From positions 1 through 64,000 of the forward strand of contig JAFLBN010000006.1 in the NCBI GenBank assembly GCA_017303395.1: 64,000 bases of DNA, given 5' to 3'. The position numbers were made by a program, and so were the translations under genes. Of the stretch, positions 7,676-33,973 are shown in pieces; the stretch's first letter is position 1; every line of letters starts with the position of its first letter. The notes below the pieces were generated by a model. It worked only from the letters and a program-made list of their open reading frames with translations. It did not search any database and was not told where the DNA came from. The DNA comes from Chitinophagales bacterium. GTDB lineage: Bacteria; Bacteroidota; Bacteroidia; Chitinophagales; Chitinophagaceae.

Positions 7676-8020
7676 TTATTGCTTCTTTTTCTTGCTCGAT
7701 TTTGCCTTGCTGTTAAAGTCGAGACAAAGATTAACCCAATACTGTAAGTCCGATTCCTTTTTGATGTAATCAAAGTCTACATACACATAGCCTTTCATCG
7801 GTTTGCCTTTCATATCCATCGGGCGAACGCCCTGTTTCTCAAGTGATACTTCATATACATCAGGGTCTATGCGGCAGAGGATTTCTTTGTCGTTCACACA
7901 GATGCACATCTTATCATTGACCATAAAACACATGCCGCTGAACATGGTTTTTTCTTCTAGTTGTTCTATATGTGCTAATGCCTCGCGGATGCGATTGGCT
8001 ACAGTTTCATTAACAGGCAT
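7676..8020 (-). CDS. TfoX/Sxy N-terminal domain protein
   Basis: 114 residues matching the TfoX N-terminal domain: a helix, then MFSGMCFMVNDKMCICVNDKEILCRID, then MKGKPMKGYVYVDFDYI. In gammaproteobacteria this domain belongs to a competence regulator; stand-alone copies in Bacteroidota have no shown role. The C-terminal TfoX domain is absent and the protein ends in a Lys-rich tail (KAKSSKKKKQ). It is 13 bases downstream of the next membrane-protein gene on the same strand. Confidence 0.75.
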   Translation of the reverse strand: MPVNETVANRIREALAHIEQLEEKTMFSGMCFMVNDKMCICVNDKEILCRIDPDVYEVSLEKQGVRPMDMKGKPMKGYVYVDFDYIKKESDLQYWVNLCLDFNSKAKSSKKKKQ

Positions 8021-8709: not shown

Positions 8710-9369
8710 TTACTTTACGTAAAATGCATAACTGCCTGCGTTATTAAATGCATCTTCAGACCTTTTTTGGTAGAATTCGTCTACTGAATTTTTTAAAAAT
8801 GGATAGTTGCAATTTCCCTGATTACTGTTATAGAATGTAAAGGCATAGTATTCATGCTTGCATTGTGTCACACCAGTTATGCTCCCGGTTCCGTTACTTC
8901 GTGTAGTGGCAAATTCCAGCATATACAAGCCAGCTTGTTGGGTAATAAATGCTGCTTTGTATTTATAGGTGTTATTCTCATATTTGTAGGAGATGTCAGT
9001 AGAGCTTTCGCCACTCTTTGACCCCTCGTACACAATAATTTTAGGATTAGTAATCGCGATGCTACCCACCTTATTTAAGTCAATAAGACTGAACCCAGCG
9101 TTGAAGTCAAAGTTATTAAGCGTATAGTATTTGCCATTTTGTGAATTCTTTAGGCTATTGCTAAATTCTTGTTCTATCCATATAGTATCACCGATATTAA
9201 ATGTGTCTTTTACAGGAGATGTTTTTACAGGTAGTGTAAAGTATAAGTTTATCTGATTGCTGATTCCGTTACATTCTTTGTTCTTACCACAACTGATAAG
9301 AAAAAGGACACTTGGTAACCAACCAAGAAAGGTGGACAGCATCCATTTTTTGAGAGAGATGGCATTCAT
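8710..9369 (-). CDS. Putative lipoprotein with a borrowed N-terminus
   Basis: 219 residues. The start MNAISLKKWMLSTFLGWL is nearly the same as that of the neighbouring six-helix membrane protein, but here the helix ends in LISC, a lipobox with Cys27, so it should work as a lipoprotein signal peptide. The mature part (DTFNIGDTIWIEQEFSNSL; QQAGLYMLEFATT) has the beta-rich, Asn/Ser/Thr-rich look of a Bacteroidota surface lipoprotein; I know no family for it. The coding sequence is more AT-rich by eye than the genes around it. The chimera suggests that a 5' end was copied onto a new body. Confidence 0.7.
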   Translation of the reverse strand: MNAISLKKWMLSTFLGWLPSVLFLISCGKNKECNGISNQINLYFTLPVKTSPVKDTFNIGDTIWIEQEFSNSLKNSQNGKYYTLNNFDFNAGFSLIDLNKVGSIAITNPKIIVYEGSKSGESSTDISYKYENNTYKYKAAFITQQAGLYMLEFATTRSNGTGSITGVTQCKHEYYAFTFYNSNQGNCNYPFLKNSVDEFYQKRSEDAFNNAGSYAFYVK

Positions 9370-28576: not shown

Positions 28577-30019
28577 ATGAAGAAAGAAATAAAAGGAAAG
28601 GACGGCCATATATATCTGCATATAGCAGACGGTATAGAGCAACAGATAATGGACAGGGTGCTGAATATTGGCGATAAACTGCCGTCTGTAAGGGGATTGA
28701 GCGAACAGCAGGAAGTGAGTATGAGTACTGTTTTGCAGGCGTATTACCATCTGGAAGGGAAGGGGCTCATAGAGTCTCGTCCGCAGAGTGGGTATTATGT
28801 AAAGTATAATCCGTCTAAGTTTTTATTGTCTTTAGAAAAAAGCAATCCTTCATTAACTACGAAGAATAAAAACGTAGAAGCCATTATATCTGAAGTGTAT
28901 GATGATTTTGTGATGCCGGGTATTATGAAGTTTTCGCTGAGTGTACCTGCGCCTGAATTGCTGCCACTGCCCAAGCTGAACAAAGCGATGGCACAGGCAT
29001 TGAGAGACCTGCCCGATAACGGAACATCGTACGAGTCGATACAAGGTAATGCGCTGCTGCGCACGCAGATAGCAAGGTGGACACGCCAGTGGGATAGCGG
29101 ACTGAAGGCTGACGACCTGGTAACAACTGCCGGCTGCATGAATGCTATATCTTATTGCCTGATGGCCATTACAAAGCCGGGTGATACGATAGCGGTTGAA
29201 AGCCCTGTATACTTTGGTACGCTGCGCTTTGCACAAAGCATAGGGCTGAAGGTGGTAGAGCTGCCTACACATCCCGATACGGGTGTTGACCCCGATGATG
29301 TGAAACAGGCACTACAGAAGCATAATATAAAAGCATGTTTTTTTGTTACGAACTTCAGCAACCCGCTGGGCTATACCATGCCCGATGAGCAGAAAGAAGC
29401 CCTCGTAAAACTACTGAGCAAACATGGCGTGCCGCTGATAGAGGACGACCTGTATGGCGATGTATATTTTGGCAAAAACCGACCACGCTCTTGTAAGAGT
29501 TTTGATAAAGAAGGCAACGTACTGTGGTGCAGCTCTGTATCTAAAACACTGGCACCGGGGTATAGAGTAGGGTGGGTGGCACCCGGCAAATACCTGGAGA
29601 AAGTGAAACGCCTGAAGCTATACCACAGCATAACCAGTGCTACGGTGCAGCAGGCGGCTATTGCCAATTTTCTGGTAACGGGCAGGTACGAACACCACCT
29701 GCGCAAGCTGCGGCAAACACTGCACAGCAACAGCCTGCAATACTCTCGTGCTATAGGCGAGTACTTTCCCGAAGGGACGAAGATGAGCAGCCCCAAAGGT
29801 GGCTTTATACAATGGCTGGAACTGGATAAGCGAATAGATACCTACGAACTGTATCGCGAAGCCATACAACATAAAATAAGCATAGCACCGGGCAGTATGT
29901 TTACCCTGCAAGACCGCTACCGCAATTGTATGCGCCTCAGCTACGGTATGCAATGGACACCACAGGTAGAACGCTCGCTAAAGAAACTAGGTAGCCTGGT
30001 GAATCAGCTGATGCGATAG
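28577..30019 (+). CDS. MocR/PdxR-type transcription regulator (GntR wHTH fused to aminotransferase fold)
   Basis: 480 residues. Residues 10-80 form a GntR winged helix (LHIADGIEQQIMDRVLNIGDKLPSVRGLSEQQEVSMSTVLQAYYHLEGKGLIESRPQSGYYV). Residues 110-480 form a fold-type-I aminotransferase-like domain with the PLP lysine in SSVSKTLAPGYRVGWV (Lys near 322), the FFVTNFSNPLGYTMP loop and LIEDDLYGDVYF. Such regulators sense PLP or an amino acid and control neighbouring genes. The divergent EamA transporter is the most likely target. Confidence 0.93.
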   Translation: MKKEIKGKDGHIYLHIADGIEQQIMDRVLNIGDKLPSVRGLSEQQEVSMSTVLQAYYHLEGKGLIESRPQSGYYVKYNPSKFLLSLEKSNPSLTTKNKNVEAIISEVYDDFVMPGIMKFSLSVPAPELLPLPKLNKAMAQALRDLPDNGTSYESIQGNALLRTQIARWTRQWDSGLKADDLVTTAGCMNAISYCLMAITKPGDTIAVESPVYFGTLRFAQSIGLKVVELPTHPDTGVDPDDVKQALQKHNIKACFFVTNFSNPLGYTMPDEQKEALVKLLSKHGVPLIEDDLYGDVYFGKNRPRSCKSFDKEGNVLWCSSVSKTLAPGYRVGWVAPGKYLEKVKRLKLYHSITSATVQQAAIANFLVTGRYEHHLRKLRQTLHSNSLQYSRAIGEYFPEGTKMSSPKGGFIQWLELDKRIDTYELYREAIQHKISIAPGSMFTLQDRYRNCMRLSYGMQWTPQVERSLKKLGSLVNQLMR

Positions 30020-30102
30020 TTTATTGATGTTGCCTATAAATACGTATTACTCTTTTTGGAAGTATAACTATATTATTAGTATATTATTTTATATATTTCG
30101 GT

Positions 30103-30990
30103 ATGTCTCATGCCGGAAATAAAACGAATGTTTGCCCTAACTGTGGTTTTCATACATCGCACAATTACTGTGCAGAATGCGGGCAGCAAACACATCTGCA
30201 TAAAGAGACATTCTGGGGTTTGGTGCTTCATTTTGCAGAGCATTATTTCCATTACGATTCAAAGTTCAGGCAGACACTGAAAACGCTTATTGTGCAGCCG
30301 GGTATGCTTACTATTGCTTATTGGAATAATCAGAGAGCCCGATATATTTCGCCTATCTCGTTATATATTTTCATCAGCACCATATATTTCATTATTACTT
30401 TTTGGGTGCTACCGAATACTGCTCCATTTCAGGCTATTGAAGAAAACAGAGTTAAGGCCGAGCAGTTGGCTTATGCATCAGCCGGTGCTGAAAATACTGC
30501 CAATATACCACACCCTGCATCGCAGTATGCAACACTTTCTTTTAAACAAAAATTTAAGTTGATGATGCGCGATGGTGTTGCAATCAGTGATTTTATGGAG
30601 AAAGTGAAGCATTATGTATCGAAGGTCTTTTTCTTCACCTTACCGTTTCTCGGTTTTTTCTTACAGTTGTTGTTTTACAGACGGAAAGACTTGCTGTTTG
30701 TAGATCATGCAGTTTTCTCGCTGCACCTGCATTGCATGTATTTTGTTGTGATGCTGACGCAGCAATTGGCGATGCTTACATACGAGGTAGTAGCAAACAT
30801 ATATACAGGCATATCAACCATAGGGCTGATATTTTATGCAGCACTGGCATTCCGTAATGTTTATCATGTCTCTTTGGGCAGAGGGATTTTGTATGTGTTT
30901 ATAGTGATGCTTGTATATATACTAACGATATTGGCTATAGCTCTGTTGAGCCTGTATGTATATCTACAGTATTATTATCATCCGCATTAG
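30103..30990 (+). CDS. DUF3667 membrane protein with zinc ribbon
   Basis: 295 residues. The N-terminus is a zinc ribbon with two Cys pairs (CPNCGFHTSHNYCAECGQ, residues 11-28). The DUF3667 segment HYDSKFRQTLKTLIVQPGMLTIAYWNNQRARYISPISLYIFISTIYF follows. Further helices lie near residues 180-205, 215-240, 245-262 and 267-290. The family is common in Bacteroidota and of unknown function. The stop codon is only 6 bases from the first of the palindromes described below. Confidence 0.85.
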   Translation: MSHAGNKTNVCPNCGFHTSHNYCAECGQQTHLHKETFWGLVLHFAEHYFHYDSKFRQTLKTLIVQPGMLTIAYWNNQRARYISPISLYIFISTIYFIITFWVLPNTAPFQAIEENRVKAEQLAYASAGAENTANIPHPASQYATLSFKQKFKLMMRDGVAISDFMEKVKHYVSKVFFFTLPFLGFFLQLLFYRRKDLLFVDHAVFSLHLHCMYFVVMLTQQLAMLTYEVVANIYTGISTIGLIFYAALAFRNVYHVSLGRGILYVFIVMLVYILTILAIALLSLYVYLQYYYHPH

Positions 30991-30996
30991 CCGGTT

Positions 30997-31020
30997 CATT
31001 CCATTCCATGGAATGGAATG
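30997..31020. repeat. 24-bp palindrome, state A, copy 1
   Basis: CATTCCATTCCA followed at once by its exact reverse complement, with no loop. The right flank is CGCTATTCCTGAAAA. Confidence 0.95.
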
Positions 31021-31044
31021 CGCTATTCCTGAAAATGCAGTTTT

Positions 31045-31068
31045 TGTTCCGTTCCGCGGAACGGAACA
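31045..31068. repeat. 24-bp palindrome, state B, copy 1
   Basis: TGTTCCGTTCCG followed at once by its exact reverse complement. The right flank is CGCTTTATTTTAAAA. It begins the left arm of the composite inverted repeat. Confidence 0.95.
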
Positions 31069-31114
31069 CGCTTTATTTTAAAACGCACTAATTGATAGTT
31101 AAAAGTTTATACTT

Positions 31115-31138
31115 CATTCCATTCCATGGAATGGAATG
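31115..31138. repeat. 24-bp palindrome, state A, copy 2
   Basis: Same sequence as copy 1 of state A. The right flank CGCTTTATTTTAAAA is the same as that of B copy 1. Confidence 0.95.
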
Positions 31139-31212
31139 CGCTTTATTTTAAAATGTGATTTTCCACCTTCTCTTATTTATATTGTGATGGTATATTAAAT
31201 ACGCACATACAA

Positions 31213-31368
31213 ATGAAGGCACTAAAAATAAGCCTGAGGATAATAGGTATGATACTACTATTAATAGGTTTTGATTTTGTTGTACAGCATTATCCAAACT
31301 CCTTGTGGTATTTTAGTGCAGGGTGGCTTGCTGTATTAATCAGCTTCTTTATCAAAACTTCAGAATGA
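31213..31368 (+). CDS. 51-residue predicted membrane protein
   Basis: An ATG at 31213 opens a 51-codon frame: a short basic start (MKALKISLR) and two hydrophobic segments (IIGMILLLIGFDFVV; LWYFSAGWLAVLISFFI) joined by QHYPNS, ending KTSE. Its stop overlaps the next start in an ATGA, a sign of translational coupling that supports it as real despite the small size. The whole gene lies inside the inverted-repeat cassette. No family recognised. Confidence 0.55.
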   Translation: MKALKISLRIIGMILLLIGFDFVVQHYPNSLWYFSAGWLAVLISFFIKTSE

Positions 31369-31721
31369 AGCGGCTAAACATTATTAGTGCAATACTCTTA
31401 ATCTTATTGATTGTAGTAGTTATGCTGTTTTCAACATCTGTATTGTTTGATGTTGAACGTGTTAATAAAGCTACACTACAATACAGGAATGGTATAATTA
31501 CAGCAGATTATGTGGCTGGTAATGCAACCATGCAAGATGTATTACAGATAAGATTAAAGAGTGGAGATATAGATACAGTGCTGGCTAATTATGAACAATA
31601 TAATTCTGTAAAGTCTATACAACTATTCAATGATAGCCTTCTGGAGATAGTGATGGGGGATAGTATCAATTCTTATTCAATAAAAACTGATACAGTAGTG
31701 GTACCAATAAAGTACAAGTGA
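31365..31721 (+). CDS. 118-residue predicted membrane-anchored protein
   Basis: Starts at the ATG 31365 that overlaps the upstream stop; an upstream in-frame GTG inside the first gene is rejected. One N-terminal helix (LNIISAILLILLIVVVMLFS) acts as anchor or signal, followed by an extracytoplasmic domain of about 90 residues with alternating strands (KATLQYRNGIITADYVAG; SIQLFNDSLLEIVMGDSINSYSIKTDTVVVPIKYK). It lacks cysteines and a lipobox. It is AT-rich and of unknown family, and it forms a two-gene unit with the 51-residue gene. Confidence 0.65.
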   Translation: MKRLNIISAILLILLIVVVMLFSTSVLFDVERVNKATLQYRNGIITADYVAGNATMQDVLQIRLKSGDIDTVLANYEQYNSVKSIQLFNDSLLEIVMGDSINSYSIKTDTVVVPIKYK

Positions 31722-31752
31722 TTTCAAAATAACACGTTTTTAAAAATAAACG

Positions 31753-31776
31753 TGTTCCGTTCCGCGGAACGGAACA
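31753..31776. repeat. 24-bp palindrome, state B, copy 2
   Basis: Same sequence as B copy 1. The AT-rich tail is on its left side, so the unit is inverted relative to B copy 1. Confidence 0.95.
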
Positions 31777-31819
31777 GAGATGGTATTAACTATTAATTAG
31801 TGCAGTTTAAAAACATAGC

Positions 31820-31843
31820 CATTCCATTCCATGGAATGGAATG
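31820..31843. repeat. 24-bp palindrome, state A, copy 3
   Basis: Same sequence as A copies 1 and 2, with its tail on the left. It ends 9 bases from the mutS2 stop codon. Confidence 0.95.
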
Positions 31844-31852
31844 AGCTGTGCG

Positions 31853-33973
31853 TTATTTCTTCTTTTTGCCCTGTGGCTGTTCTTTCTTTTTCACTACCAC
31901 CCATTCGTCTATACTTACGTTAAATGGCATTTGTCCTATCTGTACAATGGCTTTTTTGCCGCGCAGTTCTGTAAGCTTGCCCACCTGGTGGTTGTCTTTG
32001 TTGCGTACCATATCGCCCAGCTTGGGTGTGCCGCCTACCACATCGTAGTTCTTATCGGCCTTCTTGGCTACGGCTACATTGGCGGCTATCTGCTTACGTT
32101 TAAAGAGTACATTCTCTGCTGCCGCTATTACCTCGCCTTTATTTTCGGCCTTCTTCCAGTCTGTTATTATCTGTTTAAACTTGCGCTCCATATCGCGCAG
32201 ATAATCCAGCTCTTCTTTCTTTATCTTGTTCTGCAGGCGCAGTGTATTGTATTGCTGTTCTTTCTTTTCCTTATCTATCAGTTCGCTGAATTCTTTTTCC
32301 AGCTCTTTATTCTTCTTCAGCAGTTTATCTATCTCTTTTTCTTTGTTGGCAAGCTTCTGGCTTTGCTGCTCTGTCTGGTGCAGCATCTTATCCAGCTTAA
32401 AGTGTCCGCGCTCTGTCAGTTGTCTAGCACGGTCTATAATAGCAGGAGGTAGTCCGCTGCGCTGTGCTATAGCAAATGTGTAAGAGCTACCCGGTTTGCC
32501 CACAGTCAGTTGGTATAGTGGTTCCAGTTTTTCTTCGTCAAAAGCCATCGCACCGTTAAAGATGCCCTGCACCTTTCCTGCCATTACTTTCAGGTTCAGG
32601 TAGTGTGTAGTGATGATGCCCATAGCATGGCGCTTGGCAAGTTCTTCCACAATAGCCTCTGCAAATGCACCACCCAGGTTAGGGTCTGAACCGCTACCCA
32701 GTTCATCTATAAAGAACAGTGTTTTACCATTGGCAAAATCCATGAAGTACTTCATATCGCGCAGGTGTGCGCTATAGGTACTCAGCTCGTGTTCTATGCT
32801 CTGTGTATCGCCAATGTGTATCATCATCTGCTTGAAGATCCCCACCTCGCTATCGGGGCTGGCAGGTATCAGCAGTCCCGCTTGTGTCATCAGTTGCAGC
32901 AGCCCTACGGTCTTCATAGATACCGTTTTGCCACCTGCATTGGGTCCACTTATTATAAGTACACGTTTATCTCTGTTCAGCGATATATATAATGGTATGG
33001 TGGGCTTGCCCTCGCGGTTGTTGTGCAGTAGCAGCAATGGGTGGGTAGATTTTATCAGGTCTACATGTGGGTGCGGACTCAGGCGAGGCATCTCAGCATT
33101 CATATCCATCGCCAGCAATGCCTTTGCACGTATAAAATCGTAGAGGCCACATAGGTGATAATAGCTATCCAATTGCGGGTGCCAGCCCGAAAGGGTAGCG
33201 GTGGTTTGTGCCAGTATGCGCTGTATCTCGCGCATCTCTGCACGCTCCAGCGATGCTACTTCGTTATTCAGTTCAATGGTCTCTTCAGGCTCTATAAACA
33301 CAGTACGTTGTGTGTCGCTTTCGCCATGATGAATACCTTTTACAATGCGTTTATGCTCTGCAAACACCGCCACTACACGCCTGCCATTCAGAAAGCCCTC
33401 GGCAATATCTGCTAGGTAGCCCTGTTTGTTCAGCTTGCGTAGCACACCTTCAAACATCTTGCGGAGGTCTTGGCGGCGGCTTGCCAGTTCGGCACGTATG
33501 CTCATCAGCTCGCGCGATGCGTTGTCGCGCACATTGCCCATCTCATCTATTACAGCGCTGATGGTTTCATTGATTTGTTTTTCGTACTGTATTTTATCTG
33601 CCAATGCGCGCAGGTTCACAAACAGCCCTTCGTGGTTTTTAAACCAGTTCAGTATATCGCGTATGTTCAGTGCCAGTTGCTGAAAAGCCAATAACTGGTC
33701 TGCAGCCAATACAGCACCGGGTAGTGATACCAGCTTCAGTTCTTTTTCAATATTGCGGGTAAAGTCGTTTGGGAAATAATCACCACTCATCAGTATCGAC
33801 TTGTACTCGCGTGTTTGCACCAGTGCCTTCTCCACATATTCTATACGGGTATGAAAACGTAAGGATTCCACCCGTTCGCGGGCGGCATCGGTACGGCATT
33901 TCAATTTCAACAATTGGGCTACCTTACTAAACTCCAGAGCATCTGCGGCGTGCGCAGGGTATAAAAGCATCAT
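31853..33973 (-). CDS. mutS2: MutS2 family ATPase lacking the Smr domain
   Basis: 706 residues. MutS core and lever helices (residues 1-310), Walker A GPNAGGKT (about 342-349), signature STYSAHLRDM, Walker B LFFIDELGSGSDP (about 420), a long coiled coil (about 510-610) and a KOW/SH3-like segment (TPKLGDMVRNKDNHQVGKL). The protein ends in KKKEQPQGKKKK without the Smr nuclease domain that closes most MutS2 proteins of about 780 residues. MutS2 suppresses recombination or rescues collided ribosomes in other bacteria; ATPase and clamp functions should remain here. Its 3' end abuts the palindrome cassette. Confidence 0.9.
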   Translation of the reverse strand: MMLLYPAHAADALEFSKVAQLLKLKCRTDAARERVESLRFHTRIEYVEKALVQTREYKSILMSGDYFPNDFTRNIEKELKLVSLPGAVLAADQLLAFQQLALNIRDILNWFKNHEGLFVNLRALADKIQYEKQINETISAVIDEMGNVRDNASRELMSIRAELASRRQDLRKMFEGVLRKLNKQGYLADIAEGFLNGRRVVAVFAEHKRIVKGIHHGESDTQRTVFIEPEETIELNNEVASLERAEMREIQRILAQTTATLSGWHPQLDSYYHLCGLYDFIRAKALLAMDMNAEMPRLSPHPHVDLIKSTHPLLLLHNNREGKPTIPLYISLNRDKRVLIISGPNAGGKTVSMKTVGLLQLMTQAGLLIPASPDSEVGIFKQMMIHIGDTQSIEHELSTYSAHLRDMKYFMDFANGKTLFFIDELGSGSDPNLGGAFAEAIVEELAKRHAMGIITTHYLNLKVMAGKVQGIFNGAMAFDEEKLEPLYQLTVGKPGSSYTFAIAQRSGLPPAIIDRARQLTERGHFKLDKMLHQTEQQSQKLANKEKEIDKLLKKNKELEKEFSELIDKEKKEQQYNTLRLQNKIKKEELDYLRDMERKFKQIITDWKKAENKGEVIAAAENVLFKRKQIAANVAVAKKADKNYDVVGGTPKLGDMVRNKDNHQVGKLTELRGKKAIVQIGQMPFNVSIDEWVVVKKKEQPQGKKKK

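Follow-up and report, generated by a model that had tools for sequence, protein, structure and literature searches.

The window analysed here is a 64,000-nucleotide stretch of a Chitinophagales bacterium genome (contig JAFLBN010000006.1, positions 1 to 64,000). At the locus under study, a MocR-type regulator with GntR and aminotransferase domains (28577..30019, + strand) forms the left conserved flank, and mutS2 (31853..33973, - strand) forms the right one. Between them lie a DUF3667 gene (30103..30990, + strand) and two small open reading frames, p52 (31213..31368, + strand, 51 aa) and p118 (31365..31721, + strand, 118 aa), whose overlap bears out the description of two coupled, enclosed genes in the initial annotation. 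The flank names given there, DUF3667 and mutS2, were likewise upheld, the latter by its MutS_V and MSSS domains. Pfam returned no match for p52 and nothing over the cut-off for p118. A relative of p52 with 80% amino acid identity occupies the same site in a related genome (G008), while tblastn found no match to p118 in 15 other regions compared and none was present among 50,697 phage records. As had been claimed, no transposase was found: a Pfam match to a transposase or recombinase was obtained for 0 of 67 window ORFs (a non-overlapping set of at least 90 aa) and none for p52. Elsewhere in the window, a TfoX_N-domain protein is encoded at 7676-8020 (- strand); TfoX is known from competence control in other organisms, so natural transformation may be worth considering in this genus.

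Five perfect 24-bp palindromes of two types, A (n = 3) and B (n = 2), span 30997-31843, as first described. The outermost, A1 (30997..31020), begins 6 nt past the DUF3667 stop codon and carries a tail, CGCTATTCCTGAAAATGCAG, unlike the TTTTAAAA type; it is the palindrome already reported to stand outside the left arm. It is followed by the left B (31045..31068) with its tail CGCTTTATTTTAAAAC and the 18-mer GCACTAATTGATAGTTAA (together 31069..31102, + strand; 18-mer at 31085-31102), and then by the inner left A2 (31115..31138) with the tail CGCTTTATTTTAAAATG (31139..31155, + strand). On the other side of the small genes lie the right B (31753..31776), whose T-rich tail reads leftward (31738..31752, - strand), and the right A (31820..31843), which is 9 nt past the mutS2 stop codon and is associated with the tail GCTATGTTTTTAAACT and the 18-mer GCACTAATTAATAGTTAA (together 31786..31819, - strand; 18-mer at 31786-31803). 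The reported 18-bp spacer is thus present on opposite strands, and the layout is B> A> genes <B <A plus the outer A, with all four units of palindrome and T-rich tail directed inward. However, the proposal that arms of ~120 bp form one composite inverted repeat did not hold. The inverted pairs detected by the repeat finder (B-B, A-A, and tail plus 18-mer) cross one another, the + strand order is B then A on both sides, and the 18-mer comes after B at left but after A (- strand reading) at right. Since the pairs cross and the order is the same on both sides, these are not the co-linear terminal inverted repeats of an insertion sequence or MITE.

The pattern TTCCRTTCCRYGGAAYGGAA, which covers both palindrome types, matched the window five times at up to 3 mismatches against 0.02 matches expected, and five matches were reached in 0 of 100 shuffles. 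The window has seven perfect palindromes with zero loop and an arm length of 9 or more, five of which are the A and B copies; the remaining two, also of A/B size, have A/T-rich ends. In a 400-kb sample of a relative's genome (G004), eight zero-loop perfect palindromes of comparable size were counted. All five copies of the exact motif in the 3.76-Mb genome (G000, the genome of the window) were at this site; when up to 3 mismatches were allowed, contig C22 contributed three further sites and C23 a fourth. Had such palindromes stood at most convergent gene ends across the genome, this would have counted against the bracketing of the genes, but exact copies elsewhere were zero. Among 99 genomes (this one and 98 relatives), the exact motif occurred in six, all of them among the 15 of the genus, and in 0 of the 84 more distant relatives. 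Five copies were present in G000, G002, and G008 and three in G012, G004, and G006, for a total of 24 that form a single cluster in each genome.

This distribution led us to reject a dispersed REP family, since each genome has a single cluster of three to five copies. REPs are defined by a GTAG or CGTC tag at one end and by multi-copy dispersal (excerpt of PMC3733652). The present units resemble REPs and BIMEs, so far as that excerpt describes them, in being clustered short extragenic palindromes with alternative paired bases, but the tag is absent from the flanks (judged by eye) and the copies are not dispersed. The earlier view that the layout is unlike IS and simple REP patterns therefore stands, given the crossing inverted pairs and the lack of both REP hallmarks. 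A wider scan of genome contigs gave 16 stretches, six of which came from five array-bearing relatives; the other ten were single exact copies in unrelated genomes and, like the exact motif in one viral contig, were taken as chance. Neither the 72,556 plasmid records nor the 50,697 phage records contained a match to the left arm (30990-31170). A known RNA family was excluded because a tRNA was the window's sole Rfam entry at the gathering threshold. A position at the replication origin or terminus was also rejected: the 3.32-Mb genome of G004 has its array at 1.58 Mb and its dnaA gene at 0.74 Mb. GC skew in that genome (20 sampled stretches) was mostly positive at 0.34-1.68 Mb and mostly negative at 2.1-3.05 Mb, and the array may lie perhaps a few hundred kb from the terminus side, at no visible skew switch. 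In the titles and abstracts of literature on palindromic repeats with cassettes in Bacteroidetes, GGAAT palindromes, and Chitinophagaceae, we found no account of such arrays (most subscription papers were outside the scope).

We compared the junction across the genus. The mutS2 gene is present in all 15 genomes, and arrays stand at its 3' end in five (G000, G002, G008, G012, and G004), with a thioredoxin-like gene instead of MocR on the far side in G004. The array of G006 sits at another convergent junction. A core chromosome role was rejected, mainly because 9 of the 15 genomes lack the exact motif and because the G006 array is ~1 Mb from mutS2. Two array-free genomes, G010 and G011, have 36 bp between the matches to MocR and mutS2, and in G011 a 38-bp perfect palindrome lies between or across the two gene ends. 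Other genes stand between MocR and mutS2 in G003, G005, G007, and G006. Since the junctions of the first three contain no perfect palindrome with an arm of at least 9, palindromes are not needed for insertion. G006 keeps one imperfect palindrome and tail beside MocR. MocR was not found in the stretches fetched for G014, G009, G013, and G001 (7.6 kb in the last). Examined by eye, the edges of the array-free junctions were too diverged for a target-site duplication to be read.

The genes at the array differ from genome to genome: DUF3667, p52, and p118 in the window; p122 and p142 in G002; p52 and p122 in G008; DUF3667 in G012; and p84, a GIY-YIG gene, and p122 in G004. By eye, the GIY-YIG nuclease gene (L039, about 8760-9180) lies between inverted repeats of ~32 bp, nested within the palindrome array. 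The p122 product (L038, 8868-9236) shows a weak likeness to the C-terminal part of EF-Tu (best E 0.16); elongation factors made up 27 of its 31 weak PDB matches, and its relatives include six Leptospira and one Bernardetia plasmid records. Matches to p122 occurred in 8 of 294 sampled genomes of the family, G004 among them, and at the seven other loci (2.0-3.4 kb) no pair of perfect palindromes was found.

Comparison of the window with its relatives, which is between species and not strains, located the limits of these differences. Nucleotide identity between the window and G002 is 96.0% in mutS2, 95.6% in MocR, and 96.9% in EamA, yet the two have no enclosed gene in common. Their homology blocks (window coordinates) are 29908-30028, 30995-31162, and 31726-31926, with edges 2 bp before A1, 24 bp past A2, and 27 bp before B; the edge at 30028 falls just past the MocR stop codon, away from any window palindrome. 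The DUF3667 gene is not at this place in G002 or G008, and homology to the window resumes at 30995 and 30994, respectively, i.e., at the edge of A1. The G008 blocks are 30994-31364, which extends through p52, and 31721-31850, and those of G012 are 30087-31072, ending 4 bp beyond B, and 31822-31930. Amino acid identity of p122 is 82.5% between G002 and G004 and 68.0% between G002 and G008, against 92.6 and 97.0 for mutS2 in the same pairs, so that p122 relationships are at odds with species order. The DUF3667 copies are 40-61% identical to one another, and since one is also located at this site in G003, the history of this gene could be vertical with fast divergence.

Within the arms, the palindromes mostly differed less than the adjacent bases. 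In the left arm, differences at palindrome versus other positions were 0/72 versus 32/105 (window-G008), 0/48 versus 5/35 (window-G012), and 2/71 versus 19/104 (window-G002); in the right arm they were 0/46 versus 8/116 (window-G002), 0/24 versus 10/39 (window-G004), and 8/46 versus 33/113 (window-G008), the high palindrome value in the last pair arising because the window A was aligned with an additional, imperfect palindrome in G008. Across five distinct palindrome forms, TTCC/GGAA was invariant, both members had changed in 4 of the 12 symmetric pairs, and 59 of 60 cells paired. The covariation score exceeded all 500 shuffles, while further pair types (4 versus a shuffle mean of 4.6) were not in excess. 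Covariation supports dyad symmetry, therefore, but five related forms are few and do not prove an RNA structure. The palindromes are also extended symmetrically to varied lengths (22, 24, 26, and 30 bp).

Two explanations start from this symmetry. The invariant half-sites and the paired changes could reflect clustered operators for a dimeric DNA-binding protein that recognizes TTCC/GGAA. We consider this very unlikely, given that just 6 of the 15 genus genomes have the motif, that G006 carries it elsewhere, and that the units are behind gene ends and not ahead of promoters, with no candidate regulator. Alternatively, the palindromes could be a functionless mutational product in which template switching keeps inverted repeats perfect, a mechanism described in PMC8794818 (excerpt) and agreeable with the varied symmetric lengths. 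That account would explain the symmetry but neither the same two sequences across species nor the breakpoints at the units, and it is the most improbable of those we weighed.

The reading we favor, at roughly even chances, is that the MocR-mutS2 interval is a site of accessory-gene exchange resembling the minimal mobile elements (MMEs) of Neisseria, bordered by palindromic units that supply homology for recombination and are probably terminators as well. It is drawn from the single-cluster distribution, the array-free junctions, the complete difference in cargo between close relatives, the several breakpoints at palindrome edges, and palindromes that are mostly more conserved than their neighbors. 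MMEs are sites, lacking a recombinase, at which different whole-gene cassettes lie between two conserved genes, and they are defined as incorporated solely by homologous recombination (excerpt of PMC3898611). As in that description, different whole-gene cassettes lie here between the same two conserved genes, and the site has no recombinase; the points of difference are that the variation is seen between species of another genus and that the cassettes have palindromic units at or close to their edges. Nearest in action among the systems compared are the NIME arrays of N. meningitidis, which have been proposed to promote recombination with incoming DNA near variable genes and whose dRS3 unit, ATTCCC(N8)GGGAAT, reaches almost 700 copies per genome (excerpt of PMC3898611). 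As far as that excerpt goes, both are short ATTCC..GGAAT inverted-repeat arrays near variable genes, but a by-eye comparison showed that the present unit does not fit the dRS3 formula, being a palindrome that is symmetric throughout and whose outer hexamers are separated by 10 nt, and in place of hundreds of dispersed copies there are three to five in one place (five, in a single cluster, in the window genome).

If the interval is such an exchange site, two conserved convergent genes would enclose a place where small genes come, go, and replace one another, with short repeated palindromic units at or near the exchange boundaries. By analogy to the Neisseria MMEs, the repeated units and the conserved flanks would be where homologous recombination or annealing replaces the cargo. 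Each palindrome with its T-rich tail might act as an inward-facing intrinsic terminator that shields the cargo from read-through, and perfect symmetry might be kept by selection for a hairpin or dyad or by template-switch correction. Several observations weigh against this reading. No recombination event was observed in what is a comparison among species, some edges fall away from the palindromes (30028, and the G008 block through p52 to 31364), and G003, G005, and G007 have genes at the junction without a perfect palindrome of arm at least 9. The DUF3667 gene at this place in G003 is compatible with vertical descent and fast divergence, and the right-arm palindromes of the window and G008 differ at 8 of 46 positions in the alignment to the imperfect extra palindrome. 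The terminator part also has exceptions, namely the offset of the T-run from the stem, its lack at the outer A, the reversed unit behind p118, and a separate terminator ahead of the palindromes in G006.

The initial annotation had considered an unusual insulating terminator array, and terminator-like features were indeed present. A terminator-like scan matched four of the five palindromes, each facing inward; it yields 15 sites in 8 kb versus 6.3 in shuffles. An 8-base window containing five or more T lay close to either side in 21 of the 24 copies in the six genomes, copies that are related, against a background of 0.231 per side or ~0.41 for either side. In the four matching palindromes the stem is followed by a T-run that starts 2-6 nt off it; the outer A has none. 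RNA folding of the arms was below that of shuffles (z -3.9 to -7.8), and the unit began 3-10 nt past a stop codon in the eight cases measured (two each in the window, G012, and G008 and one each in G002 and G004), while the unit at the 3' end of p118 has the opposite orientation. The G006 adhesin gene beside the array has, by eye, its own ordinary-looking terminator ahead of the palindromes. Termination by these predicted units is a probable but secondary role.

The same features could be explained by ordinary bidirectional terminators that were duplicated locally upon gene insertion, so that the palindromes would matter only as 3'-end RNA hairpins, with the bracketing as a by-product. The positions just past stop codons, the scan matches, the T-rich tails, and the folding below shuffles would fit, as would the 38-bp palindromic terminator at the same place in the array-free G011. 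Like bidirectional intrinsic terminators, the units are palindromes with a T-rich side at convergent gene ends, but here 2-6 nt separate the T-run from the stem and one locus carries repeats of the same sequences, whereas several other terminator-like palindromes in the window have stem-flush A/T runs and unrelated sequences. Moreover, the same two sequences recur across species despite diverging flanks, the central 4 nt are symmetric too, a feature not required of an RNA loop, and the G006 units come after a separate terminator. We regard this explanation as unlikely.

Related arrays occur at other loci. In G006, three direct copies of a 97-bp unit of palindrome and tail (100, 97, and 95% identical to the query copy) bracket a DUF3667 gene, the whole standing between the adhesin gene and p319; the corresponding gap is ~0.4 kb in G000 and G012 and ~1.3 kb of other sequence in G004. 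The tail of this unit was rejected as a dispersed repeat, having just one partial match in G006 outside its array. A looser pattern, TTCCRTTCCN{0,8}GGAAY, matched the window genome 24 times, with some overlap between matches; 15 of these were here and nine in contig C22. At the C22 locus (L149, G000:C22, 4854-7000; L150, 5340-6290; L151, 4970-5960), ATTCC/GGAAT pentamer arrays flank small genes, and G000 is ~555 bp longer than G002, the extra segment, with a 123-aa gene, lying between two copies of a 28-bp stretch of palindrome and tail. This could equally be an insertion in G000 or a deletion in G002 by recombination between repeats. A GTTCC/GGAAC array is present twice in G002, in direct orientation (L150, G002:C11, 1059 and 1682), on either side of a 197-aa gene. 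DUF3987 genes adjoin GTTCA/TGAAC or GTTCC/GGAAC palindromic arrays in G004 (L059, 11890-11935 and 13373-13410) and G006 (L101, 9266-9310), the G004 array being on both sides of the gene and next to a BT4734-like/PriCT_2 gene. By eye, inverted GGAAC/GTTCC arrays also surround a small ORF in G011 (G011:C64, L152, 4959 and 5795).

The direct units around DUF3667 in G006, with the differing gap in G012, G000, and G004, the C22 segment of G000, and the G002 arrays around the 197-aa gene would suit integron- or transposon-like cassettes, in which a gene moves together with one unit and the palindromes are recognized by a recombinase whose gene lies elsewhere. Set against this are the 0 of 67 window ORFs with a Pfam match to a transposase or recombinase, a target duplication that is not shown, the three to five copies in one cluster per genome, and the C22 direct-repeat insert, which is explicable as a deletion in G002; we judge such cassettes rather improbable. 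In integron cassette arrays and CALINs, a gene and a palindromic site are repeated in an array with variable cargo, and CALINs lack an integrase by definition. The present locus shares that organization, but its palindromes are perfect and loop-free, its units have both orientations, and 0 of the 67 window ORFs match an integrase. The earlier suggestion of a mobile cassette or recombination target thus survives in part: the array-free junctions in G010 and G011 and the differing cargo of close relatives speak for it, but a self-contained transposable cassette is unsupported, with no transposase in 67 ORFs and no target duplication shown. A genus-specific, low-copy class of cassettes with GGAAY/RTTCC pentamer-palindrome ends, moved by a dedicated putative recombination activity at several loci (mutS2, C22, the G006 adhesin, and the DUF3987 arrays), is a doubtful proposal.

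On the exchange-site reading, the locus offers a compact, testable case in which small accessory genes are exchanged at one set position of the chromosome that lacks a neighboring recombinase gene, the boundaries of the swaps being marked by repeated palindromes. If a dedicated activity exists, this would be a new cassette system; if there is none, it would be an exchange site like those of Neisseria, its edges resembling terminators, in a distant bacterial group.
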